From positions 62,001-126,000 of the forward strand of contig MPMR01000006.1 in assembly GCA_002238605.1 (NCBI GenBank): a stretch of DNA of 64,000 nucleotides, in the 5' to 3' direction. A program made the translations under genes and the position numbers. Positions 35,247 through 54,985 of this stretch are shown in pieces (positions within the stretch are counted from its first letter, which is position 1; each line of letters begins with the position of its first letter). Under the pieces are notes generated by a model. The model did no database searches and had not been told where the DNA came from. It saw nothing but the letters and a program-made list of their open reading frames with translations. Origin of the DNA: BD2-11 clade cluster bacterium bin43 (GTDB lineage: Bacteria; Gemmatimonadota; Gemmatimonadetes; Longimicrobiales; Gaopeijiaceae).

Positions 35247-35975
35247 GTGAACGGACGCACACTCGCTCTCGCGCTGGCACTCGTCGCGCCCACACCCGGC
35301 TTCGGGCCTGTGATGGCCACAGCCCAGAACGTGGGTGATCGAGTACGCATCACTATCGGCGAAGACAGGGTTGTCGGCAGGGTTGTCACGCTTGGACAGG
35401 ACAGCATCGGCCTGTTATCCAGCCCGACTCGGTTCAGAGCCGTCGCGTGGGAGAGTGTCGATCTGCTGGAGCGCAGGACCGGTTCGCGTTGGTTGTTGGG
35501 AGCAGCCATTGGTGGTGGTGTCTTGGTGGGGGCAGGGGCGATCGCAGTGGCGACGAAGGAACCATGCACCGGCTTCTGCATCGAAGTTGTTCCCCCCGCA
35601 GCAGCGTTTGCCACCCTAGATATAGTCGGAGGTCTCTCGGGTGCGGTTATCGGTCGACTGTTCTCGCGTTGGGAAACCGTTGCGACCGACCGTGCGGGCG
35701 CCATGATCCTTTCGCCGACCGTGGATCTACGACTCGGTCGACAAACCATCCCTGGGCTGTCCATCGGTGGACATCTCCGTCTGAGTGGCTCGGCTGCGGC
35801 GCGCCCAGGCCGGATCGCGCAGATCGATTCCGTCTTTCCCGCTATCGCGACAGGATGGAATCAGCATGTACGGGTTCCGGCACGGCTCGCGCCACGAGCG
35901 CCACGCCCGGGACCTGCGCGCCTTCCTCGACAATCCGTACGTGTCACTCGTGTCGGTCGGAGCGACCACTGCTGA
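35247..35975 (+). CDS. Secreted or membrane-anchored protein of unknown function, C-terminus replaced
   Basis: A 242-residue frame starting at GTG 35247 with AAGGAGG 7 bases upstream. It has a signal peptide ending ATAQN, a small beta domain (VRITIGEDRVVGRVVTLGQDSIGL) and a Gly/Ala-rich membrane segment (WLLGAAIGGGVLVGAGAIAVA), then another Gly-rich stretch and a barrel-like end. From about residue 205 the frame runs out of frame through a vapC remnant, giving an Arg/Pro-rich tail. The true C-terminus was probably lost when the vapC piece arrived. The body is likely a real gene; no function known. Confidence 0.55.
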   Translation: MNGRTLALALALVAPTPGFGPVMATAQNVGDRVRITIGEDRVVGRVVTLGQDSIGLLSSPTRFRAVAWESVDLLERRTGSRWLLGAAIGGGVLVGAGAIAVATKEPCTGFCIEVVPPAAAFATLDIVGGLSGAVIGRLFSRWETVATDRAGAMILSPTVDLRLGRQTIPGLSIGGHLRLSGSAAARPGRIAQIDSVFPAIATGWNQHVRVPARLAPRAPRPGPARLPRQSVRVTRVGRSDHC

Positions 35976-36168
35976 CCGCTATTCGAGGATCGCGGCGGCG
36001 CTCGGCGCGAAAGGCCGTCGCATCCCCACAAACGATCGCTGGATCGCTGCCCATGCCATGGAGACCGGGGCCGATCTGGTGTCGGCCGTCCGCCACTTCG
36101 AGCATGTGGACGGGATCGCGTGGATTCGGCTAAGGGGCGGGCGCGGACCGACTTTGCCAACGGTGTGA
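35866..36168 (+). pseudogene. VapC (PIN toxin) C-terminal two thirds
   Basis: The frame begins MYGFRHGSRHERHARDLRAF and ends VDGIAWIRL plus a short tail. It matches the middle and C-terminus of a PIN-domain toxin, with IPTNDRWIAAHA and GADLVSAVRHFEHV carrying the later acidic sites. The N-terminal strand with the first Asp is missing and no antitoxin is adjacent. The N-terminal part of a close relative is found at 52.2-52.5 kb. Confidence 0.75.
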
Positions 36169-44561: not shown

Positions 44562-45170
44562 TCAATCCTTGGCCCGGCCGCCGTCCCCCACCAACCCCGC
44601 AAATCCCTCCACCTCCCGCGACGACCTCAGCCGCATGAACCGAACGTGTTCCCACCGCGGATCCGACATATACGCGATCATGTCTCTTCGTTTCCGGGCG
44701 TGCTGGGTGATGATCCATCCGAGCAGTGAATCATGCGGTCGCCAGATCATGAGGTGGGGCCAGAAGCGCTCGTAGTTCGTTCCCCAGATCAGCTCCCTGG
44801 ATCGCCAGCGCCTCCAGGTGCGGCGCAGGAAGCGCCAGACAAGGACCGGCAGCGGCAGATCGAGCCAGACGACGGTATCGAGCCGCGGCCAGAAAGTCCG
44901 CTGGGAGAACTTCGTGTAGGAACCCGCGACGACCCAGCGCTCGCCCCGGGTCGCCTCGCGAATTCGGCGCTCCAACTCGTCGGGATCCGTCGCGTTGAGG
45001 CCGACCCATCCGGATTGCCAGTTGATCGCGTCCAACTCCACGAACGTCGCATCCAGCGCCTCCGCCAGCCTCGCCCCGAGTGTGCTCTTGCCCGATGTGC
45101 TGTTGCCGATGACGTGGATGCGCGTGCCGATGGCCGAGTGCTCATCGATCTGCGTGTCCGGAACTGCCAT
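44562..45170 (-). CDS. P-loop adenylate-kinase-like protein
   Basis: A 202-residue P-loop protein: IHVIGNSTSGKSTLGARLAE (Walker A near residue 25), ATFVELDAINWQ, VVAGSYTKFSQRTFW, DTVVWLDLPLPVLVWRFLRR, then a lid-like basic region and HVRFMRLRSSREVEGF. It belongs with the FlaR/topology-modulation-like small kinases often annotated as adenylate kinase-like. The ATG at 45170 has GGAGAG 6 bases upstream. Pieces of closely related sequence occur at 52.5-52.8 kb and 54.9 kb. Phosphate acceptor unknown. Confidence 0.85.
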   Translation of the reverse strand: MAVPDTQIDEHSAIGTRIHVIGNSTSGKSTLGARLAEALDATFVELDAINWQSGWVGLNATDPDELERRIREATRGERWVVAGSYTKFSQRTFWPRLDTVVWLDLPLPVLVWRFLRRTWRRWRSRELIWGTNYERFWPHLMIWRPHDSLLGWIITQHARKRRDMIAYMSDPRWEHVRFMRLRSSREVEGFAGLVGDGGRAKD

Positions 45171-45348
45171 CGGGTCTCTCCGCTCGCATCGTTGACCGGC
45201 TATCCCCTCTTCGCGAACAGGAGCAAACGACTCGGAGCCAGTCGGAAGCCGAGCCCTTCCGAGTTCGCGGCAGACATGTATCGGCCGAGGCTCGCGATCC
45301 GCAAGCGACAGATCGCCCTCGGACGCGCGACGACACTCCGAACAACAC

Positions 45349-45770
45349 CCCATCCTGCCATTCGTCCGCCCGCGGATTCCAGCGAGATTGGTGCCCCGCC
45401 AATCCCGGAGCCGCCATGCACGATCGACTGCGGAGAGGTTCGCGGCCGCAGACGCGCTCCCGGAGTTCGTCTATCTGGTCCTCTACCACGGCGACGGTCC
45501 TTGGAACGCCACGACCCGCGTGGCGGACCTGTTCCGGCGCTCCGACCCGGGGCGGTACCGCCTCGTCTCGTGGGGAGAAACTTCGGAGGGTGCCCGGTCA
45601 CCATACGACCTCACGGCTCTAGTGCTCGGCTTGGCGCGCACCCTCTCGGTCGGGGACATGGCCGCGCAGCTGGCGGCCCTGCGACGGGCGGTGGAGCACC
45701 ACGGGGATGCGGACCTGGACGCGTTCATGGTGGGGCGGATGGACACCATGTTAAGTTGAGGGAATACCCG
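45349..45770 (+). pseudogene. Rpn-family nuclease, N-terminally truncated and frameshifted
   Basis: The frame ending at 45759 reads FVYLVLYHGDGPWNATTRVA, YRLVSWGETSEGARSPYDLT and HHGDADLDAFMVGRMDTML, the second half of an Rpn/PDDEXK transposase-like catalytic domain. The N-terminal catalytic strands are absent. At 45,755 the frame stops (TTAAGT). The next frame carries on with KLREYPEELKVRGARTMAEMVDRF, so one small indel separates the two halves. Compare the intact sequence MDTMLELRDQPEELK at 51.0 kb. Confidence 0.75.
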
Positions 45771-45800: not shown

Positions 45801-46031
45801 ATGGCCGAGATGGTGGACAGGTTCCAGCGCAGCCTGGACGAGTTGGTTGAAAAAGGGATGCGGCAGGTTCTGCGTCGTCAGGCCGCCCGCAGATTCGGCG
45901 AGGAGACGGCCGGACGTTTGTCCATGCTCCTTGAGGAACTGTCCGACCCCGAAGGCATCGACAAGGTGAGCGACGCGCTGATCGAATGCGGCACCGCCGA
46001 AGAGTTCATCGAGCGAGTGCGGATGGCCTGA
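45801..46031 (+). CDS. Free-standing Rpn C-terminal domain (RpnS-like)
   Basis: A 76-residue frame from ATG 45801, which has AGAGGAG about 10 bases upstream. The product reads MAEMVDRFQRSLDELVEKGM, then VLRRQAARRFGEETAGRLSM and DALIECGTAEEFIERVRM. It is the C-terminal oligomerisation-type domain of Rpn/DUF4351 proteins. In E. coli, Rpn genes also make such a C-terminal product from an inner start, which inhibits the nuclease. Here the upstream nuclease part is broken, leaving only this domain expressible. Role as an inhibitor is inferred. Confidence 0.6.
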   Translation: MAEMVDRFQRSLDELVEKGMRQVLRRQAARRFGEETAGRLSMLLEELSDPEGIDKVSDALIECGTAEEFIERVRMA

Positions 46032-46365
46032 AGGGGGCCCTTGGCCGCGCCGCCCAGCAAGCTTTGGACGGGGTAGTCGGGAACCGGTTGCGATCCGGCA
46101 ACTGGCTGGCCAGCGTGGCCGTCGGCGCGGTCGCTAGGCAGTCGAGATGCCGCCGATGGGTTCGGCTGAAACGCAAGCACCCGGCCATCCTCCCTACGTG
46201 TTGGCTCCTACATAATATCCACGGGACTGAAGATGGTAGGGCGTTCCAAGCCGATTACTTCAGGAAACGCTGTACTTGGCCTGCTGGCGGTGATGCCGGT
46301 GCTCGCTTACGAATCGATGGGGTCCGGCCTCGGCGTTGTCAGTCCCCGGCATCGTGCGTTTCCCG
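46032..46365. other. Gene-free stretch
   Basis: No gene, repeat or clear hairpin seen in these 334 bases. It separates the Rpn remnant from the convergent propeller lipoprotein gene. Confidence 0.5.
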
Positions 46366-47586
46366 TCAGGTGTCGACGCGGTCGAGCGTCCAGAGTTGCA
46401 CGTACTCGAGCCCGAACTCGTCGGCGGTGGAGCCAAGGATGTAGTCCGCGCCGATCTCGAAGATTCGCAAGTCGGGCGGTGTGGTCACGAGGCCGCGCAC
46501 GCGGCCATCGACGTCGAAGACGGTCCACAACGGGACCGCATCATCCTTCCCACCGGGCATTGGGTACTCCTCGACCCACAGGAAACCCAAGCGGTCACCC
46601 ACTATCCTGCGGAAGGCCGGGAACGCCTCCACACGCGGCATGTCGCGCAGGTCGGCCAGCGCCGCCGCGCGCTCCTCCTGAGAGGCGTCCGCGTACTCGC
46701 GGGCAAGATGGTCTTCGACGTCGGCTGCGGTTGGACTTCGGACATCTTGATCACGGCGCACGATTCTCATCAGCGTGCCGTCGGCTCCATAGGCCCGGAT
46801 CTCGTACCGGTTGTTGGGGCTGACAACGACCAAGTCTGCCCAGAGGGCAGTGAGCGTCGAGCGGGCGAACGGTAGCGCGTACACGGCCATCCGCTGGTCT
46901 TCCGACACCACATACCACTCGGAACCCGCATGCGTCCCGAGCGTCGCGTGCAAGCCACCGTCAGACCAGGCAATGCCGTACGCAATGTCTCGGCGCACTA
47001 CCCCGGTGCCCACGACGCCCGCCGCCAATGCGGTGCCGTTCCCCAAGAACAGCTTGCCGTCCGGCAGCACTCCACGGAGGCGGTAGTACGGTGCCTCCAG
47101 CACAAACGTGCGGCCGTGTGCTCCAGTGGCATCGAAGACGGAAACCCGCCTTGCAATCGCATCCGACGTCGCGATCGAGTCACCGGGCCAGGGCTCGACC
47201 GCCGAGGGCCCGGCTGTGCTGAACTCGCCGGGCCCCCTGCCTTGGCCACCCCACGATCCCTGGTGGACGCCCGACGCGTCGAACGCGCGCAGTTCACTGG
47301 ACCCGGTGTTGGCGACGACGATCTTCCCATCGGGGAGTCGTGTGGCATCGGTCACTCCGAACAGTTCGTATACCGGGTCGCCCACCGCTGTCCCGATAGT
47401 GATCGCGGGCGCTGTGCCAACCCGCCATCCGAGCCGGGTATCGGGCCCGGGCCGTTCGTTCTCGACGATCGTCACACCAGCGCTGTCGCGCACGACGGAG
47501 GCGGGTACCGAGGTGCCTTCATCATCATCCGTGCAGGCGATCGCGGTACCGACAATGTAGAGAGCGGCGCGAGCCAGAGTCCTCAC
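46366..47586 (-). CDS. 6-bladed beta-propeller (NHL-like) lipoprotein
   Basis: A 406-residue protein with a lipoprotein signal (VGTAIAC, Cys near residue 18). Blades include VTDATRLPDGKIVVANTGSS, LRAFDASGVHQGSWGGQGRGPGEF, AIARRVSVFDATGAHGRTF and LWTVFDVDGRVRGL. The GGQGRGPGEF motif is typical of secreted 6-bladed propellers in Gemmatimonadota and Bacteroidota. It probably binds ligands at the cell surface. Its start touches the stop of the SRPBCC gene upstream by 4 bases, making it the last gene of the second ArsR operon. Confidence 0.82.
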   Translation of the reverse strand: MRTLARAALYIVGTAIACTDDDEGTSVPASVVRDSAGVTIVENERPGPDTRLGWRVGTAPAITIGTAVGDPVYELFGVTDATRLPDGKIVVANTGSSELRAFDASGVHQGSWGGQGRGPGEFSTAGPSAVEPWPGDSIATSDAIARRVSVFDATGAHGRTFVLEAPYYRLRGVLPDGKLFLGNGTALAAGVVGTGVVRRDIAYGIAWSDGGLHATLGTHAGSEWYVVSEDQRMAVYALPFARSTLTALWADLVVVSPNNRYEIRAYGADGTLMRIVRRDQDVRSPTAADVEDHLAREYADASQEERAAALADLRDMPRVEAFPAFRRIVGDRLGFLWVEEYPMPGGKDDAVPLWTVFDVDGRVRGLVTTPPDLRIFEIGADYILGSTADEFGLEYVQLWTLDRVDT

Positions 47587-48182
47587 AATATGTCCTCCGT
47601 GGATTCACGCGATCCGGACGCCGACTCACCAGCAGGCTCGGGCGGACTTCGGTGCACCGCCCCCTCTGGCCCGAATCGGCGCGCATAGCGGGCGAACCGA
47701 TCGTTGTGCCGGTCCCACCTGAAAGGCTCGACCGGGCTTCCACCCAGATGTGCCTCCAGCGATGCGAAGCAGTGGTCCCATCCCGCCGCGTAGAGCGCCC
47801 CCCGCCCCTGGTCGTCGAAGGTGTGGGTGAAGGTGAGCAGCGTGCCCCCGGGGCGCTCTTCGAGCTCCCAACGGAGCACATCGTCGTCCAACCGATATTC
47901 GAGCACGCCGGGCGGATCGCAGACCAGGATCTCACCTGTCATGACCAGCCCCTCCGCGTCCGAGTCGGCAGGTGTCCGACCGGGCTCCGCGAACACGAAC
48001 CGGAGCGCCGCGCCCACCTCGCGCTCGCCCACCATGCGGGCCGGGAACCACGCGGAGAGGTCGTCCTCCGACGTGATCGCCCGCCAAACGCGTTCGCGAG
48101 AATGCCCGAGGAACCGTTCGAATCGCAACACGTATCTGCCGCCCCGCTCTTCCAGGGTCCCGCTTCCTTCGCTCTCGTTCAT
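47583..48182 (-). CDS. SRPBCC domain protein
   Basis: A 199-residue AHSA1-type protein: VLRFERFLGHSRERVWRAIT, LSAWFPARMVGEREVG, VLRWELEERPGGTLLTFTH, YAAGWDHCFASLEAHLGG. The ATG at 48182 has GGAG 9 bases upstream. The C-terminal 30 residues are Pro/Ser/Glu rich. It is the second SRPBCC gene of the 49062-46366 operon. Ligand unknown. Confidence 0.85.
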   Translation of the reverse strand: MNESEGSGTLEERGGRYVLRFERFLGHSRERVWRAITSEDDLSAWFPARMVGEREVGAALRFVFAEPGRTPADSDAEGLVMTGEILVCDPPGVLEYRLDDDVLRWELEERPGGTLLTFTHTFDDQGRGALYAAGWDHCFASLEAHLGGSPVEPFRWDRHNDRFARYARRFGPEGAVHRSPPEPAGESASGSRESTEDIL

Positions 48183-48266
48183 GGGTCGTCTCCAGACTGT
48201 TCGAGGTGTGACACGCGGCAGGGGCGGCCACGACCCACGCAATAGAGCGGGCGCCGGGTAGGGACA

Positions 48267-48707
48267 TCACGCGAACAGAAGCTCCAGATTCTCCAGGCAT
48301 CCGGCCCAGCCGCTGCGCGGTCCTTCGGTGTCCTCCGCCGTAGGGAACCCTTCGTGGGTGATGACGACTCGCGTCGCCTCACCCTCGGGTAGAAACTCTA
48401 CCGTCACCAGGGTTTCCCCGACCCAGTCCTCCGCCTCTTCCAGATCCCACGTGTAGACGAGCCGCCGGGGGAAATCGACCTCCCGGTACGTTCCGAATAC
48501 ATGGTAGACCTTCCCGCCGGCCACCTCCATGCGAAGCTTGAACGCCCCGCCCTCTACAAGATCACGCTGGAACCCAAGGATCCTTCCTCCTCGCGAGCCG
48601 TGCCAACGCAGGACCAGCTTCGGGTCGGTCCATGTCCGGAACACTTTCTCAGGGGTGGCCGGGATCACTCTCGAGACCCGGACCGTCCGTGCGGGATCGA
48701 TCATCAT
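48267..48707 (-). CDS. SRPBCC (AHSA1-like) domain protein
   Basis: A 146-residue protein: VRVSRVIPATPEKVFRTWTD, LVLRWHGSRGGRILGF, GGKVYHVFGTYREVDFPRRL and a helical end SGWAGCLENLELLF. Double ATG at 48707/48704 with GAAGGA upstream. Its first 20 codons overlap the end of the arsR gene in another frame, the same arrangement as in the cassette at 36.4 kb. Confidence 0.85.
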   Translation of the reverse strand: MMIDPARTVRVSRVIPATPEKVFRTWTDPKLVLRWHGSRGGRILGFQRDLVEGGAFKLRMEVAGGKVYHVFGTYREVDFPRRLVYTWDLEEAEDWVGETLVTVEFLPEGEATRVVITHEGFPTAEDTEGPRSGWAGCLENLELLFA

Positions 48708-49062
48708 GCGGTTTTCCTTCAGGGTTAGGTGACGTGGACTCTCCTGACTCGAAATAGCAGGCCAGGGCAGCGAGCTGGGCTTCCCAGAACTCCCGATATG
48801 TCGCGACCCAAGCTGCGGCTTCCCGCATCGGTCGGGCGTCGAGCGCACAGCGGCTCGTGCGTCCCTCTCGTGTCCGGTCCACGAGCCCCGCCCCCTCCAG
48901 GACGCGCAGGTGCTTCGAAATCGCCGGTCGCGAAATGTCGAACGGCGCCGCCAGTTCGCTGACCGTGGCGTCTCCTTCAAAGAGGCGCGCCAGGATCGCC
49001 CGGCGTGTCGGATCGGACAACGCTTGGAACGTGGTATCGAGCTGTCGAGAAAAGGTAACCAT
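48649..49062 (-). CDS. ArsR-family regulator
   Basis: A 137-residue winged-helix protein: FQALSDPTRRAILARLFEGD, VSELAAPFDISRPAISKHLR and LVDRTREGRTSRCALD. The ATG at 49062 lies inside an 18-bp perfect palindrome, so binding there would block both transcription and translation. The last 25 residues overlap the SRPBCC gene in another frame. It heads an operon of two SRPBCC genes and a propeller lipoprotein. Confidence 0.88.
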   Translation of the reverse strand: MVTFSRQLDTTFQALSDPTRRAILARLFEGDATVSELAAPFDISRPAISKHLRVLEGAGLVDRTREGRTSRCALDARPMREAAAWVATYREFWEAQLAALACYFESGESTSPNPEGKPHDDRSRTDGPGLESDPGHP

Positions 49063-49071
49063 ATGGTTACC
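49054..49071. promoter_or_regulatory. 18-bp palindrome over the second arsR start
   Basis: GGTAACCAT is followed by its reverse complement ATGGTTACC, and the ATG of the arsR gene is inside it. The GGTAACC/GGTTACC halves match those of the operator at 36366-36385. It is the likely autoregulatory site. Confidence 0.8.
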
Positions 49072-49118
49072 AGTAGCGTCATGGCCTCGCCTCGTCAAGA
49101 CCCTTCTGGGACGCCTAA

Positions 49119-49340
49119 GACCCCCGGCAAGTTTATCCCCCTGACCCGGCGGCTGACGCACAGTCTGACCCCCTGTTTGGGCTGCTCCAGGACGGTTTTG
49201 AGGGGCGCTACAGGGACAGCACCCGTGCGGATCATCTGCTCCGTCATGCGGGTCTTCACCAGGCGAGCCTGAGTCCAGCGGACAAAAAAGTGCTCTCGCG
49301 GCTTGTTGCCGCGATCAAAAAGGAGGAGCGAAGCCGATGA
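49119..49340 (+). pseudogene. Gene fragment upstream of HigA-like antitoxin
   Basis: An open frame of 73 codons without a start codon reads from just after a TAA at 49116 to a TGA that overlaps the antitoxin ATG (ATGA). The end reads LSPADKKVLSRLVAAIKKEE, similar in style to the C-terminal helix of RelE/HigB toxins, which precede HigA genes in this manner. The N-terminal toxin part is missing. Confidence 0.45.
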
Positions 49341-49642
49341 CGAGCCGACGCACCAATCGGGGACTCGAGCTGGAGAGGGCCCTCGGCGAAGTGCTCGCCC
49401 ATGTGCGCGGCACCACGCCCCTTCCCTGCCGAATCGTCGACGACCCGGCCCCCGAGCACATCCTGGCGTTACGCAAGCGAATGAAGCTGAGCCGACAGAA
49501 GTTCGCCGACAGTTTCGGGCTCGATGTCCGAGCGGTGCAGGAGTGGGAACAGGGCCGGCGGGTGCCCGACCGCGCAGCCCGCGTCTTGCTCACCGTCATC
49601 GACCGAGAGCCCGAAGCAGTTGTACGGGCTCTCAGCGGGTGA
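49337..49642 (+). CDS. HigA/NadS-like HTH antitoxin, orphan
   Basis: A 101-residue protein with an XRE-type helix-turn-helix: ILALRKRMKLSRQKFADSFG and LDVRAVQEWEQGRRVPDRAA, the classic NadS/HigA family sequence. GGAGGAG lies upstream. It overlaps the stop of a broken upstream frame by 4 bases, so it was the second gene of a toxin-antitoxin pair and now appears to lack its toxin. Confidence 0.85.
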   Translation: MTSRRTNRGLELERALGEVLAHVRGTTPLPCRIVDDPAPEHILALRKRMKLSRQKFADSFGLDVRAVQEWEQGRRVPDRAARVLLTVIDREPEAVVRALSG

Positions 49643-49798
49643 ACGATCCGCCGAGAGGTTCAGTGTCGCATCGTCTTGGCTGAGAGGCTTGGCCAAGAGT
49701 GCGAATCACCCGCCCGAGCGCACGCCTCGGCAATCTCTCGGAGCCATCCATCCGTCGTCCAGCCGACGACGAAGCAACCGATCGTGTTCGGTCGGCCG

Positions 49799-50077
49799 CT
49801 ACGCACGCACGCGGGCAAACAACTCCGCTCCGCTGTCACAGTCGATGATCGCATCGACGACCTCGTCGAGCCGATCTGCATCCGCCCTGTCTTCCAGGAT
49901 CCGTGTCAGCCGCTCGGCCGTCTCCGCCCCGAATTTCCTGGTCGCAAAACGCCGCACCAGGAGCGCCCGCTCCCTGATGCGGCCCTGCTCCAAGCCCTGC
50001 TCCAAGCCCTGCTCCAAGCCCTGCCGGACACCGTCGCGGTGGACCTGGTCCCTCAACTCCTTCGCTCTCTCGTACAT
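49799..50077 (-). other. Candidate inner translation start giving RpnS-like product
   Basis: Inside the Rpn gene an in-frame ATG at 50077 (M241) has GGAGG at 50090-50086, 8 bases upstream, a near-ideal ribosome binding site. It would yield a 92-residue product holding the QGLEQG linker and the C-terminal domain. This is the layout of the intragenic small proteins of E. coli Rpn genes. Use of the site is a prediction. Confidence 0.55.
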
Positions 50078-50797
50078 CTCTTCGTCCTCCGTGAACGACA
50101 TCATCCGTGCCAGGTCCGCTTCGGGAATCTGCCACGCCTCTGCAGCCCCCGCTACCCACGAATGCAGTGCCTGGTGCAACTCGGCGAACTCCGGCCCTTG
50201 GAACCGACGGATCAAGCCCCGCATGACCCGCCGGAGGTTCTCCGGCGTGGGTTCGCGCTCCATTATCCCGAGCGAGGTCACCAGGTCCCCGGACTTGGGG
50301 TCCTGCTCGCCGATCCGCTGCAAGTCCAGCAGGAGATACCTGAAGCTCGGCAGGTACTGCGCCAGCGGTTCCGTAACGGAGGCGATAAGCTCGGCGACGT
50401 CCGTGGCAGCCCGCCAGCGCGGCCGACCGTTGTAGACCGCGACCGGCAGCAGGGGCGGCAGCTTATTACCCGGCTTGAGCTCTCCCCGGCGGATCAGCTC
50501 CTCGTAGGTGAGGCAGGTGTACGTGAGGATGCGGAGCGCCATGAACGGGTCGTTCTCCGACTGAAACTCCAAGAGGATCAGCAAGTACAGCCAGCCGTCC
50601 CGGAAGCGCACCTTGCAGAGCAAGTCCATTTGGCGTTGGATCAGGCCGGCGCTGATCCGATTGGGCGGGAGGGGCTCCAGTGTGTCGAAGTCGAGTTCGT
50701 CGGCCAGCCCCTTGCCCACGAAATCGCGGATGAGTTCCTCGACCGCCGCTCGCTGGGAGAAGATGAGTTTGTAGGTCTCGTCGTGCTTTCGAGCCAA
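49799..50797 (-). CDS. Rpn-family PD-(D/E)XK nuclease, full length
   Basis: A 332-residue protein of the Rpn/YhgA-like family, once called putative transposase. The N-terminus HDETYKLIFSQRAAVEELIR and catalytic strand YLLILLEFQSENDP are typical; LPPLLPVAVYNGRPRWRAAT and DLVTSLGIMERE follow. After residue 240 comes a coiled linker with QGLEQG repeats and a C-terminal domain (LLVRRFATRKFGAETAERLT, DAIIDCDSGAELFARVR). E. coli homologues are DNA endonucleases with antiphage activity, held in check by a C-terminal product made from an inner start. This is the only complete copy in the window. Confidence 0.88.
   Translation of the reverse strand: MARKHDETYKLIFSQRAAVEELIRDFVGKGLADELDFDTLEPLPPNRISAGLIQRQMDLLCKVRFRDGWLYLLILLEFQSENDPFMALRILTYTCLTYEELIRRGELKPGNKLPPLLPVAVYNGRPRWRAATDVAELIASVTEPLAQYLPSFRYLLLDLQRIGEQDPKSGDLVTSLGIMEREPTPENLRRVMRGLIRRFQGPEFAELHQALHSWVAGAAEAWQIPEADLARMMSFTEDEEMYERAKELRDQVHRDGVRQGLEQGLEQGLEQGRIRERALLVRRFATRKFGAETAERLTRILEDRADADRLDEVVDAIIDCDSGAELFARVRA
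49983..50024. repeat. 12-bp tandem repeat in the Rpn linker
   Basis: The unit CCCTGCTCCAAG occurs three and a half times in a row. On the coding strand it encodes QGLE repeated. The period is a multiple of three, so copy number changes would lengthen or shorten the linker without breaking the frame. Confidence 0.9.
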
Positions 50798-51046
50798 TCC
50801 GGACTCCCGCGGGGCGGGTTCACGTGGCGGCCAGAGGGGCGTCCTGCGAGGCTGTGAGCCCGGTGCCGCCGGTAAGTATCGGATCGTCGGCTGGGCGAAT
50901 ACATGGCAGAATGAGACGGATTACTCCGGGCCGTCGAAGCCGGGGTGTTGGGTACACGGCGATGCTCTACCGCGGTCGAGGGAATGGACACCATGTTAGA
51001 ATTGAGGGACCAGCCGGAGGAGCTGAAGCGGGGAGGAGCGAAGACG

Positions 51047-51778
51047 ATGACCGAGATGGTGGACAGGTTCCACCGAAGCCTGGACGAGTTGGTCCAGGAA
51101 GCGGGGCGCCGGGGAATTCGGCAGGGAGCTCGATACGGGCGGCAGGCGGGTCAGGTGCTGCTCCTGCGACGACAGATTGCCCGGAAGTTCGGCGACGACA
51201 CGGCGGGCCAGCTGTACGGGCTGCTCAATGACCTGACCAGCCTGGACAACATCGACAGGGTCACCGACGCGCTGCTGGAATGCGGAACCGGCAAGGAGTT
51301 CATCGAGCGGGTGCAATTCTCGGCCGCGAGCCACGCATCCGACCGGCAATCAGCCGCTTCTCTGGCCGACACATCGCCGCTTGATGTCCCTGATGTCGGA
51401 AGGGTCCGGGATGTGGACGGCCGCACCCTCGCGCCCGGCCCCAGCGCGGTTCTCGGAACGATCCGCAGAGAATTGGGAATGGGCAAAGGCAGCACGATCT
51501 GGGCGGACTTATGGAGCAGGCAAAAGCCCAAGACGATGGAGGAGCTGGTGGACAAATTTCAGCGCGGTCTGGATGAGTTGTTCGAGCAGGGTGCGCGGGA
51601 GGGAGCCCGGCAGATCCTGCGCCGGCAGATCACCCGAAGATTCAGCGAGGATACGGCTGTACAGTTGTCCGGACTGCTCGCTACACTCACCGAACCCGAC
51701 AGGATCGACGAGGTGACCGACGCCTTGATCGAATGCGGCACGGGCGAGGAGTTCATCGAACGGGTGCGGATGGTCTGA
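51047..51778 (+). CDS. Tandem Rpn C-terminal domains in one frame (RpnS-like dimer)
   Basis: From ATG 51047 (GGGAGGAG 9 bases upstream) a 243-residue frame holds two C-terminal domains in tandem. The first reads MTEMVDRFHRSLDELVQEAG, LLLRRQIARKFGDDTAGQLY and DALLECGTGKEFIERVQ. The second, from about residue 164, reads MEELVDKFQRGLDELFEQGA, ILRRQITRRFSEDTAVQLSG and DALIECGTGEEFIERVRM. The linker is rearranged sequence. No catalytic part precedes it apart from a few codons (MDTMLELRDQPEELK), so it cannot be a nuclease. It diverges from the full-length Rpn gene. Confidence 0.65.
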   Translation: MTEMVDRFHRSLDELVQEAGRRGIRQGARYGRQAGQVLLLRRQIARKFGDDTAGQLYGLLNDLTSLDNIDRVTDALLECGTGKEFIERVQFSAASHASDRQSAASLADTSPLDVPDVGRVRDVDGRTLAPGPSAVLGTIRRELGMGKGSTIWADLWSRQKPKTMEELVDKFQRGLDELFEQGAREGARQILRRQITRRFSEDTAVQLSGLLATLTEPDRIDEVTDALIECGTGEEFIERVRMV

Positions 51779-51946: not shown

Positions 51947-51986
51947 CAATACGAATCGAGTTATGAGTCACCCAAGGAAGACAACC

Positions 51987-52247
51987 GTGAAGCAACTCAC
52001 CGTCCGTGGCCTGGGAGACGAGCTGGCGCGGGCGATCCGGCGGCTTGCGAGCCGTGACGGCACATCGCTCAACCGGGCCGCAGTCAAGCTGATGCGTCGG
52101 GGCGCGGGGCTGGCAGAAGGACGGGACATGGATGTCGTCGGCTCGTCGCTCGACCACCTCATCGGGACCTGGAGTTCCGCAAAAGCGGAGGAGATCAACG
52201 AGGCGCTGCGACACTTCGAGGCCATCGACGAGAGCACGTGGGAATGA
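51987..52247 (+). CDS. VapB/FitA-like antitoxin
   Basis: An 86-residue protein starting with KQLTVRGLGDELARAIRRLA and GTSLNRAAVKLMRRGAG, a ribbon-helix-helix fold. I prefer the GTG at 51987 because AAGGAAG lies 6 bases upstream; an in-frame ATG at 51963 overlaps the operator region and has no site. The C-terminus (INEALRHFEAIDESTWE) would wrap the toxin. Its stop overlaps the start of a truncated vapC by 4 bases. Confidence 0.85.
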   Translation: MKQLTVRGLGDELARAIRRLASRDGTSLNRAAVKLMRRGAGLAEGRDMDVVGSSLDHLIGTWSSAKAEEINEALRHFEAIDESTWE

Positions 52248-52525
52248 GGGTGCTGCTCGACTCGGGCGCGTATTCGCAGCTCATGCAAGGGCGCGAGGAG
52301 GTGAGTCGGATCGTGCGCGACGCCGAGGAAGTTTTGCTCCCGGCGGTTGTGCTCGGCGAGCTTCTGTATGGTTTCCGCCACGGCTCACGCTACGAGCGCA
52401 ACGCTCGACAGATGCGCGCTTTCCTCGACAATCCGTACGTGTCATTCGTGCCGGTGGGAGCGAGGGCCCCCGAAAAGTGTGCGTTTTTCAATGGCCAGAA
52501 GTGTGCACTTTTCGGTGGCCATTGA
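52244..52525 (+). pseudogene. VapC (PIN toxin), C-terminally truncated
   Basis: The frame begins MRVLLDSGAYSQLMQGREEV with the first catalytic Asp (D6), keeps AEEVLLPAVVLGELLYGFRH with the conserved Glu, and is cut after FLDNPYVSFVPVGA. The last 20 codons run into IS21-like end sequence. The later acidic residues are lost, so the toxin should be inactive. The missing part is present in a relative at 35.9-36.2 kb. Confidence 0.85.
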
Positions 52526-52527: not shown

Positions 52528-52535
52528 CGAGATCG

Positions 52536-52799
52536 AGCCAGACGACGGTATCGAGCCGTGCCCAGAGAGTCCGCTGAGAGAACTTCGTGTAGGAACCCGC
52601 GACGACCCAGCGCTCGCCCCGGGTCGCCTCGCGAATTCGGCGCTCCAACTCGTCGGGATCCGTCGCGTTGAGGCCGACCCATCCGGGTTGCCAGTTGATC
52701 GCGTCCAGCTCCACGAACGTCGCATCCAAGGCCTCCGCCAGCCTCGCCCCGAGTGTGCTCTTGCCCGATGTGCTGTTGCCGATGACGTGGATGCGCGTC
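52536..52799 (-). pseudogene. P-loop kinase fragment (second copy)
   Basis: About 264 bases nearly identical to 44,867-45,128. On the minus strand it encodes IHVIGNSTSGKSTLGARLAE through RLDTVVWLDL, lacking both ends of the protein. Its left edge meets the IS21-like end and its right edge meets the stop codon of the next minus-strand gene. Confidence 0.85.
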
Positions 52800-53549: not shown

Positions 53550-53640
53550 GTGAGTCGGGAATTTGCCACGCCTCCGCGGCCCCCGCTACCCATGAATACA
53601 GCGCCTGGTTCAGCTCGGCGAACTCCGGCTCTCGAAACAT
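53550..53640 (-). pseudogene. Rpn-family internal fragment
   Basis: About 90 bases encode FREPEFAELNQALYSWVAGA and AEAWQIP, nearly the same as FQGPEFAELHQALHSWVAGA in the full-length Rpn protein. Both ends are cut. It lies between two unrelated divergent genes. Confidence 0.8.
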
Positions 53641-53668
53641 CGACGGCACAACCCGCAGGAGACGAACG

Positions 53669-54904
53669 ATGGTTTGGAAGACGACGCATGAGCGGACGAT
53701 GTATGCCACGGCCGTCGCGGCGGTGACGCTGTCCATCGCAGTACTCGCAGCGCCGGCTCGCCCGCTCGCCGCCCAGGAGGTAATCGAACTGCCGGCGGAA
53801 GACCTCCCGCTCGACGCCGACTTCGAGGAAATCTACCGGGTGGGGTCGCTGGACGGGGATGGCTGGGACACCTTCGGCCGCGTCGGCACGGTCGGCTTCG
53901 ACGGTTCCGGCAACCTCTACATCCTCGACACGGAAGCGGTGCGGATCAATGTCGTCGACCTGCAGGCCAGCCTGGTGCGGCAGTTCATGCGAGAGGGGCA
54001 AGGCCCCGGGGAGTTCGGAAGCAACACCGCGTCGGCGCTGGAGTTCGCCGTCATGGGGGACGGGCGGGTGACTGTCTACGACCCGGGACAAACGGGATTC
54101 ACCCTCTTCGGTGCCGACGGCCAATTCGAACGCATGGTCCGATTTTCAGGTGCGCAGTCGAGCGCGGCGATGATTGGCGGCATTCAGGCCTTCCCGGGAA
54201 TGGATCGAGTTCTCGCGACATCCGAGGTCACCTACCTGAGAATGACCGCGCCCGGTCCGGAGGACGAGCCGACGGACCCCTCGTTCCGGCCCGTCCTGAG
54301 CTATGATGTGGGAGGCGACGAGGTCCGCATCGATTCGGTTGCCGCGGGGTGGTGGCCTCCCGGTGATGCGGAGGGATTCAGGCCGCCGCTCCGGGCGGGC
54401 GCGCTGCCTGGCGGAACGGTCGTTTACACCGACTCTACCTCGTATGCGATCAAGTATGCCGGGCCGGAAGGCCGCGTGACCCGGGTCCTGACCCGTCCGT
54501 TCCAACCCCGCCCCGTGACGGGCCGCATCAGGGCCGCCGAGATCGAGCGGCGCCTGGAGCTGCTTGGCGACGTTCGCGGCGGCGACCCGATGCTACAGAG
54601 AATGAGCGAATTCCGTCGCCGCCGGATCGAGGCGATGGAGTTCTTCGACGAGATCCCCGTCGTGGTCGACCTGAGAACGAGCTGGGAAGGCACGATCTGG
54701 ATCCTTCACCGGGGTGACGGGGGCGCGGAGGGCAACCGCATCGACCTCATTTCGTCGGACGGACGCTACCTGGGCACCTTCCCCCCCGGCTCCACCGCGA
54801 TGCCTTCCGCCTTCGGCCCGAACGGCCTCGTGGCGTTCGTGGAGACGGATGACCTGGACGTGCCCTATGTGGCGGTAAAGCGCCTGCCGGAGGGGATACG
54901 CTGA
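53669..54904 (+). CDS. Secreted 6-bladed beta-propeller protein
   Basis: A 411-residue protein with a signal peptide ending RPLAAQEV. Blades include RVGTVGFDGSGNLYILDTEA, QFMREGQGPGEFGS, VTVYDPGQTGFTLFGADG and GTIWILHRGDG. The GEGQGPGEF-type motif links it with the lipoprotein at 46.4 kb. AGGAGA lies 9 bases before the ATG. It probably sits in the periplasm or outside the cell; ligand unknown. A small kinase remnant directly follows its stop. Confidence 0.82.
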   Translation: MVWKTTHERTMYATAVAAVTLSIAVLAAPARPLAAQEVIELPAEDLPLDADFEEIYRVGSLDGDGWDTFGRVGTVGFDGSGNLYILDTEAVRINVVDLQASLVRQFMREGQGPGEFGSNTASALEFAVMGDGRVTVYDPGQTGFTLFGADGQFERMVRFSGAQSSAAMIGGIQAFPGMDRVLATSEVTYLRMTAPGPEDEPTDPSFRPVLSYDVGGDEVRIDSVAAGWWPPGDAEGFRPPLRAGALPGGTVVYTDSTSYAIKYAGPEGRVTRVLTRPFQPRPVTGRIRAAEIERRLELLGDVRGGDPMLQRMSEFRRRRIEAMEFFDEIPVVVDLRTSWEGTIWILHRGDGGAEGNRIDLISSDGRYLGTFPPGSTAMPSAFGPNGLVAFVETDDLDVPYVAVKRLPEGIR

Positions 54905-54906
54905 TT

Positions 54907-54985
54907 CAGCCGCCAGCCTCGCCCCAAGCGTGCTCTTGCCCGATGCGCTGTTGCCGATGACGTGGATGCGGGCGCCGATCGTCGC
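54907..54985 (-). pseudogene. P-loop kinase remnant (third copy)
   Basis: About 75 bases encode RIHVIGNSASGKSTLGARLA on the minus strand, matching the Walker A region of the 44.6-45.2 kb kinase with a few changes. It begins 3 bases after the stop of the propeller gene. Confidence 0.8.

Follow-up and report, generated by a model that had tools for sequence, protein, structure and literature searches.

We analysed a window of 64,000 nucleotides (G000:C46:62001-126000) from BD2-11 clade cluster bacterium bin43, whose 4.47-Mb draft genome (G000) is held in 65 contigs and is 97% complete. The window contains a locus of the Rpn nuclease family, which comprises a full-length gene, rpnA, a second gene that encodes two Rpn C-terminal domains (CTDs) in tandem, and the remains of a further Rpn gene belonging to a second subfamily, RpnB (Table 1). 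We use RpnA and RpnB as subfamily labels of the present analysis, and our RpnA is not equivalent to E. coli RpnA. For comparison, we drew on genus relatives, in the range G001-G010, and on genomes of the same family, all labelled by G-codes; most of these are draft metagenome-assembled genomes, and three, G031, G034 and G035, have one or two contigs each.

RpnA is composed of an N-terminal nuclease domain (NTD) of the PD-(D/E)XK type followed by a helical CTD with three LEQG repeats. The NTD matches PF04754 (E 8e-24), and the protein matches TIGR01784 of NCBIfam with E 5e-11, which lies under the family's own cut-off. Residues D58, E77 and Q79, the presumed catalytic residues by comparison with the superfamily, are invariant across 22 homologues, and the gene is intact, in agreement with the initial annotation, which had counted a single complete Rpn gene at this place. 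Full-length orthologues with 85-89% identity are found in G002, G003, G004, G008 and G010, among which the number of LEQG repeats differs. The AlphaFold2 model of RpnA (mean predicted local distance difference test score, pLDDT, 80) has an alpha/beta domain at the N-terminus and four helices, one of them very long and three short. A Foldseek search with this model gave weak likeness to restriction endonucleases and other proteins, with no match at E 0.001 or better. No solved structure was found by profile: PDB 7TH0, which represents the RpnS fold, is absent from the sequence-profile matches and from the listed Foldseek matches (all 12 of one run, 50 of 339 in the RpnA run). By analogy with its family, RpnA would be a toxin-antitoxin nuclease with a gene inside the gene, in which the long form acts as the PD-(D/E)XK nuclease and the inhibitor role falls to a small internally started product.

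Such a start had been proposed from the first reading of the DNA, which noted an inner ATG at 50077 with GGAGG 8 nt upstream; both are present, and the pattern recurs. Of the 25 full-length Rpn genes taken from G000 and its relatives, with RpnA among them, 24 have a Shine-Dalgarno-like motif at a distance of 4-11 nt upstream of an in-frame start codon (ATG, GTG or TTG) close to the NTD/CTD junction. The motif GGAGG itself was observed at 23 of the 25 internal starts; synonymous codon choice alone would give 10.5, and among the other in-frame ATG or GTG codons in the same genes (residues 20-210) the motif precedes 3 of 252. For any of six Shine-Dalgarno-like motifs, the corresponding figures are 24 of 25, 15.8 and 20 of 252. 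Since the internal starts were chosen partly by motif and the 25 genes include close pairs, the P-value is optimistic, although the contrast with the background is large. From these counts, an internal translation start before the CTD is predicted for Rpn genes more often than chance would provide, and the finding that Zhong et al. reported for E. coli and C. difficile (PMC10327210) thereby carries over to these genomes.

The tandem gene is divergent from rpnA across a 186-bp region. Possible starts of its open reading frame (ORF) occur from 50945 onward, and sequence resembling RpnB begins at 50984, about 20 residues before the likely start; the reading of two domains in tandem is confirmed. 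The gene occupies the same place and orientation in two other species, with an identity of 89% in G005, where the contig ends just before the stop codon, and of 84-85% in the two halves of the gene in G002. The 186-bp region is 90-92% identical among G000, G005 and G002, and its RpnA-proximal 110-175 bp recur in other genomes beside RpnA, CTD copies or Rpn remnants; within it, a promoter scan found no sigma-70-like site and a terminator scan was negative too. A more distant two-CTD ORF, with 61% identity, is present in G008, remnants related to the tandem gene are present in G003, G006 and G007, and eight named database loci encode relatives of its protein. The AlphaFold2 model of the tandem protein (mean pLDDT 62, below 50 in the linker, built with four sequences) is too weak to say whether the two CTDs pair, and Foldseek with this model returned nothing at E 0.001.

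Initially, the CTDs at 45801 and 51047 had both been described as CTD-only genes with good ribosome binding sites. Both are indeed real frames in which the CTD has no nuclease domain in the same ORF, and both have an ATG with a Shine-Dalgarno-like sequence at the site that is the internal start of intact RpnB; at 45801, however, there is no clean separate gene. Here the stretch 45348-45423 matches the region upstream of the G009 RpnB gene, with at most its first codons, and 45445-45756 matches its late NTD; between the two, 314 bp with the presumed catalytic residues are gone, and a one-base frame break near 45753 puts the CTD in a frame other than that of the late-NTD remnant. As judged by these matches, 45801-46031 is the tail of a broken RpnB with its core deleted. 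Within the genus, the best DNA matches of this locus reach an identity of 74-78%, which is higher over shorter pieces. The pairwise ratio of nonsynonymous to synonymous change (dN/dS), our measure of selection, is 0.22-0.29 between the 45801 CTD and three relatives, a low value that may reflect mostly the time before the break.

Table 1. Features of the Rpn locus and related fragments in the window
Feature	Coordinates	Strand	Basis or remark
RpnA, full-length Rpn gene, TTG start	49799-50797	-	PF04754, AlphaFold2 model, orthologues
RpnA_S, predicted internal-start product, 92 aa	49799-50077	-	GGAGG 8 nt before ATG
Region between RpnA and tandem gene, 186 bp	50798-50983		conserved across genomes
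Gene with two tandem CTDs; 51047, an internal-start site of the RpnB type, is the likely start	50984-51778	+	DUF4351, synteny, dN/dS
CTD A	51047-51325	+	part of tandem gene
Linker, 69 residues	51326-51532	+	part of tandem gene
CTD B	51533-51778	+	part of tandem gene
CTD of decayed RpnB, startable at 45801 (GGAG then ATG)	45801-46031	+	RpnB matches
Remnants of the same RpnB (45348-45423, 45445-45756)	45348-45756	+	RpnB matches
RpnA-type NTD fragment	53551-53676	-	Rpn sequence matches
RpnB-type fragment, mostly CTD	33620-33778	+	Rpn sequence matches

Comparison of the free-standing CTDs with those of complete genes reveals to which subfamily they belong. Identity to the RpnA CTD is only 35.9% for tandem CTD A, 34.8% for CTD B and 37.7% for the 45801 CTD, and the repeat make-up differs from that of RpnA, whereas identity to the CTDs of the intact RpnB proteins of the sister genomes G005 (C230) and G009 (C62) reaches 59-66%. 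Intact RpnB was not found by profile searches in the 97%-complete draft of G000. Against DUF4351 (PF14261), the tandem protein scores 27.3 bits for a cut-off of 25 (E 3.8e-6, on domain A), and the cut-off is also exceeded by the G008 tandem and the G005 RpnB; the RpnA CTD, CTD B alone, the 45801 CTD and the G009 RpnB (24.7 bits) fall below it. By their sequence similarity, the CTDs at 45801 and 51047 are assigned to the RpnB subfamily and not to that of RpnA, and in this respect they differ from E. coli rpnES and rpnCS, which share the lineage of the adjoining Rpn gene. The same figures led us to reject the idea that the free-standing CTDs arose when RpnA was duplicated. The initial annotation had derived them from decayed Rpn copies, and this origin stands, except that the decayed source is RpnB and not the subfamily of the complete gene.

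A census of Rpn loci was made with profiles of the NTD (A1) and the CTD (A2), run on 11 genus genomes and four family genomes. G010 was dropped, its matches repeating those of G003, and G018, G062 and G103 had matches elsewhere, outside the profile search; the census thus covers 14 genomes out of the 18 that had a match. Model positions 58, 77 and 79, which are about two off the residue numbers, served to define the triad, and by inspection no locus changes class. In 50 genes, a few of which have a short N-terminus, the triad and an intact CTD share one ORF. Four loci have both parts in split frames, one has the triad and a damaged CTD, and seven have the triad and no CTD. Three of these seven are copies on contig G006:C166, of which two have another kind of C-terminus and the third has a tail that looks frame-shifted, and for this reason counting them as nuclease-only was set aside. 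An intact CTD accompanies an NTD remnant lacking the full triad, the absence being part of the definition of the class, at 21 loci; in six of them the NTD start and the later NTD are both kept and the core between is absent. A further 39 intact CTD-only domains lie in 30 ORFs, seven of which were added by hand. The rest are two loci with both parts damaged, four NTD fragments and nine CTD fragments.

In all, 51 loci keep the CTD without the triad, compared with five (eight with the G006:C166 copies) that keep the triad without an intact CTD. Our own single-break null, which is crude, predicts 2.4:1, and relative to this null P is 2.3e-4 for 51 to 5 and 4.0e-3 for 51 to 8; without one contig-end locus, P = 3.0e-4. 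The asymmetry may come from the loss of toxic orphan nucleases as well as from the retention of antitoxins.

Some individual loci deserve mention in their own right. The tails of the G006:C166 copies (L177) are rich in RKEGRAEGR-like repeats and differ from the usual Rpn C-terminus. Two RpnA copies in G005 (G005:C230:784-1791 and G005:C257:10292-11453) are without the CTD or frame-split near the internal start. At G034:C1:3010003-3011440, a CTD-only ORF lies directly downstream of a full-length Rpn gene on the same strand, as does E. coli rpnES.

Alignment of the tandem gene from the three species shows 71 substitutions and no frameshift in 720 bp, the sole indel being a 72-bp in-frame deletion in the linker, whereas the intergenic 186-bp region has three 1-bp indels with 26 substitutions (Fisher P 0.023). 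Pairwise dN/dS is 0.51, 1.03 and 0.81 for CTD A, 0.18 in all three pairs for CTD B, and 0.36, 0.63 and 0.53 for the whole ORF; the RpnA NTD gives 0.18-0.30. When the changes are placed on a star tree, ten synonymous and two nonsynonymous ones fall in the body of CTD B (dN/dS 0.07, P 4e-5), and the whole ORF has slightly fewer nonsynonymous changes than a neutral sequence (P 0.012). In both CTDs, change is faster in helix 1 than in the body, a difference that is no more than suggestive (Fisher P 0.09). Synonymous divergence in CTD A is 0.06-0.11, as against 0.23-0.29 in the RpnA NTD, a contrast that points to recombination and renders dN/dS unreliable there. When tandem and single CTDs were put into one alignment, the single ones were divided between A and B, and this alignment was set aside. 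Among broken copies, for which the values rest on few changes, the pair G002:C25/G009:C41 has 0.24 in the CTD and 0.99 in the NTD remnant, as would fit retention of the CTD only, and G005:C47 has, relative to three relatives, 0.21-0.28 in the CTD and 0.30-0.85 in the preceding stretch. In a separate pair of Rpn orthologues, G002:C31:6714-7673 and G009:C3:31100-32059, the CTD DNA is identical (no differences in 92 codons) and the NTD has 33 differences, a pattern that suggests domain exchange or gene conversion.

Six ORFs contain at least two intact CTDs and no NTD: those of G000, G002, G005 and G008 with two CTDs each, and two on contig G004:C84, which also has four full-length Rpn genes, with three and four. 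One ORF on G003:C23 has one intact and two partial CTDs, and no multi-CTD ORF was found among the four family genomes. The G004 ORFs have no Pfam match and were recognised by the CTD profile (E 6e-10 to 2e-18 per domain). In all 19 RpnB-like domains that could be scored by an anchor pattern, helix 1 has a length of 7, 11, 15, 19 or 23, so that lengths differ by multiples of four. In each of the four two-CTD genes the length is 23 in domain A and 11 in domain B; it is 7 in the 45801 CTD, and 15 and 19 in the RpnB proteins of G005 and G009. Given that exact length matching matters in E. coli RpnC, where one extra four-residue repeat in RpnC_S is reported to abolish inhibition (PMC10327210), no exact cognate has been found for the three free-standing CTDs. 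It is conceivable from the sequences, though we consider it improbable, that the multi-CTD proteins are "key rings", single proteins built from decayed Rpn arrays whose several RpnS domains of differing repeat lengths would each neutralise a different Rpn nuclease and be kept as immunity against Rpn elements that arrive from outside.

From these observations, we hypothesize, with a probability of roughly 0.6, that nuclease cores are lost from Rpn genes and that their self-starting antitoxin domains persist as orphans. The catalytic part would be deleted or broken in frame, and the CTD, having its own Shine-Dalgarno sequence and start, would stay behind as a translatable orphan. We infer that the asymmetry would arise because an uninhibited nuclease is toxic and its gene disappears, and an inhibitor with no nuclease does no harm. 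In the tandem gene, two RpnB-type CTDs would have become fused once their nuclease parts were gone, in divergent orientation to RpnA. Several results weigh against this hypothesis. Among G031, G034 and G035, with their one or two contigs each, the ratio is 12 to 2, which is not significant (P 0.18); the loci of the census are not independent, coming from related species and arrays, and most of the genomes are drafts. Within the tandem gene, helix 1 of A (dN/dS 0.8), the body of A (0.81), the linker (0.97) and helix 1 of B (0.59) are not distinct from neutral. Relatives of the second CTD in G003, G007 and G008, compared with one another, give 0.48-1.0, and G006 compared with G008 gives 0.99. 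In the broken pair G004:C275/G009:C46, the CTD has 0.27 and the NTD remnants have 0 and 0.16, contrary to a simple rule by which the nuclease part is relaxed. By these dN/dS values, constraint acts on one part of the tandem gene and not on a large share of the rest, and several of the second-CTD relatives look like relics.

The loss of nuclease cores with persistence of the CTDs concerns origin, and two further explanations, plain decay and a guarding role, concern present function; either of them may hold together with it, and the probabilities are not additive. That both free-standing CTDs are non-functional remnants which happen to be open is a serious possibility, although we do not favour it. 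It accords with the state of the 45801 locus, where the core of the gene is deleted, the frame is broken and other fragments lie nearby, and with values of dN/dS near 1 in most of the tandem gene and in several relatives. The initial annotation had taken absence from close relatives and neutral evolution as marks of decay, and on both counts the outcome is divided: the lesion at 45801 is absent from the listed matches of ten genus relatives, whereas the tandem gene is common to G005 and G002, is in frame in three species next to an intergenic region with indels, and evolves close to neutrality except in the body of CTD B, whose constraint, together with the deficit of nonsynonymous changes in the whole ORF, argues against a mere remnant. 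It is rather unlikely, in our view, that the RpnB-type CTDs are kept to neutralise RpnB nucleases brought in by gene transfer, a role that has been proposed for chromosomal orphan antitoxins. The presence of intact RpnB in G005 and G009 and its apparent absence from G000 would suit such a role, as would the constrained body of CTD B, the frame conserved across three species and the helix-1 lengths that differ by multiples of four; these lengths (7, 11 and 23), however, match neither clear RpnB allele, CTD A is near-neutral, a scan of viral contigs in IMG/VR for close relatives found no RpnB, and plasmids gave two distant partial matches with 28-35% identity.

The initial annotation had proposed that the free-standing CTDs inhibit the resident Rpn in trans. 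The two genes adjoin, their divergent arrangement is common to G005 and G002, and the G005 RpnA beside the tandem gene has lost its own CTD, so that its restraint would have to come from another protein; for that task, the RpnA-type CTD encoded in an ORF of its own on G005:C257 is the closer candidate. Since the free-standing CTDs are only 35-38% identical to the CTD of RpnA, inhibition of the resident Rpn is unlikely, and their repeats differ in make-up and length. In addition, E. coli RpnA_S and RpnB_S are reported to block only their own partners (PMC10327210). On these grounds the proposal was set aside as very improbable, and the tandem protein is probably not an inhibitor of RpnA.

The surroundings of the locus contain further repeated and toxin-antitoxin-like genes. 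Fragments of an AAA/shikimate-kinase-like gene flank the Rpn region at 44857-45125, 52530-52798 and 54910-54979, and the DNA of the first two is 97% identical. An MqsA-like helix-turn-helix antitoxin gene lies at 49337-49642 (PF15731, E 5e-7). At 51963-52525, a ribbon-helix-helix antitoxin-like gene (FitA-like, below the cut-off) is followed by a probably shortened PIN-domain gene, and a further PIN fragment lies at 35857-35979.

The kind of system described here is known, since Rpn nucleases (YhgA-like, COG5464, PF04754) with RpnS, free-standing RpnS included, have been described (Zhong et al. 2023 preprint, PMC10327210). As in the present genomes, those Rpn proteins have a PD-(D/E)XK-type NTD, a helical CTD and an internal start, with variation in four-residue repeats, arrays and a copy number that varies between related genomes; unlike them, the present locus belongs to another lineage, has several CTDs below the DUF4351 cut-off and is characterised here by sequence. 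Free-standing rpnS genes annotated as DUF4351 were likewise already reported in the preprint (rpnES = ypaA and a second rpnCS), and they resemble ours in being CTD-only genes with their own start near an rpn gene. The E. coli genes, though, sit downstream of and cluster with their cognate rpn, whereas the arrangement here is divergent and the subfamily another, and the present tandem has two CTDs per ORF, with up to four in a related genome. Type II orphan antitoxins, for which an anti-addiction model is given in PMC7354431, are alike in being antitoxins left without their toxin and unlike in that the present orphan is itself part of the toxin gene, a domain with its own start. Our search for DUF4351 literature found PMC10327210 only, a wider one on Rpn showed that preprint and PMC5350276 among the papers listed, and within the Rpn and DUF4351 literature found, the supplements of that preprint excepted, multi-CTD Rpn proteins are undescribed. 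What is new is the ORFs with two to four CTDs in tandem, and also the arrangement in G000 of orphan RpnS-type domains, one of them doubled, from a subfamily not found intact in that genome.

If the hypothesis is correct, every break in the toxin part of a gene whose antitoxin is encoded inside it and starts by itself leaves behind an orphan antitoxin gene. This would help to explain genes that consist of DUF4351 only and would supply ready-made immunity genes, and the tandem CTD proteins would offer a natural test of the way in which four-residue repeats govern Rpn specificity.

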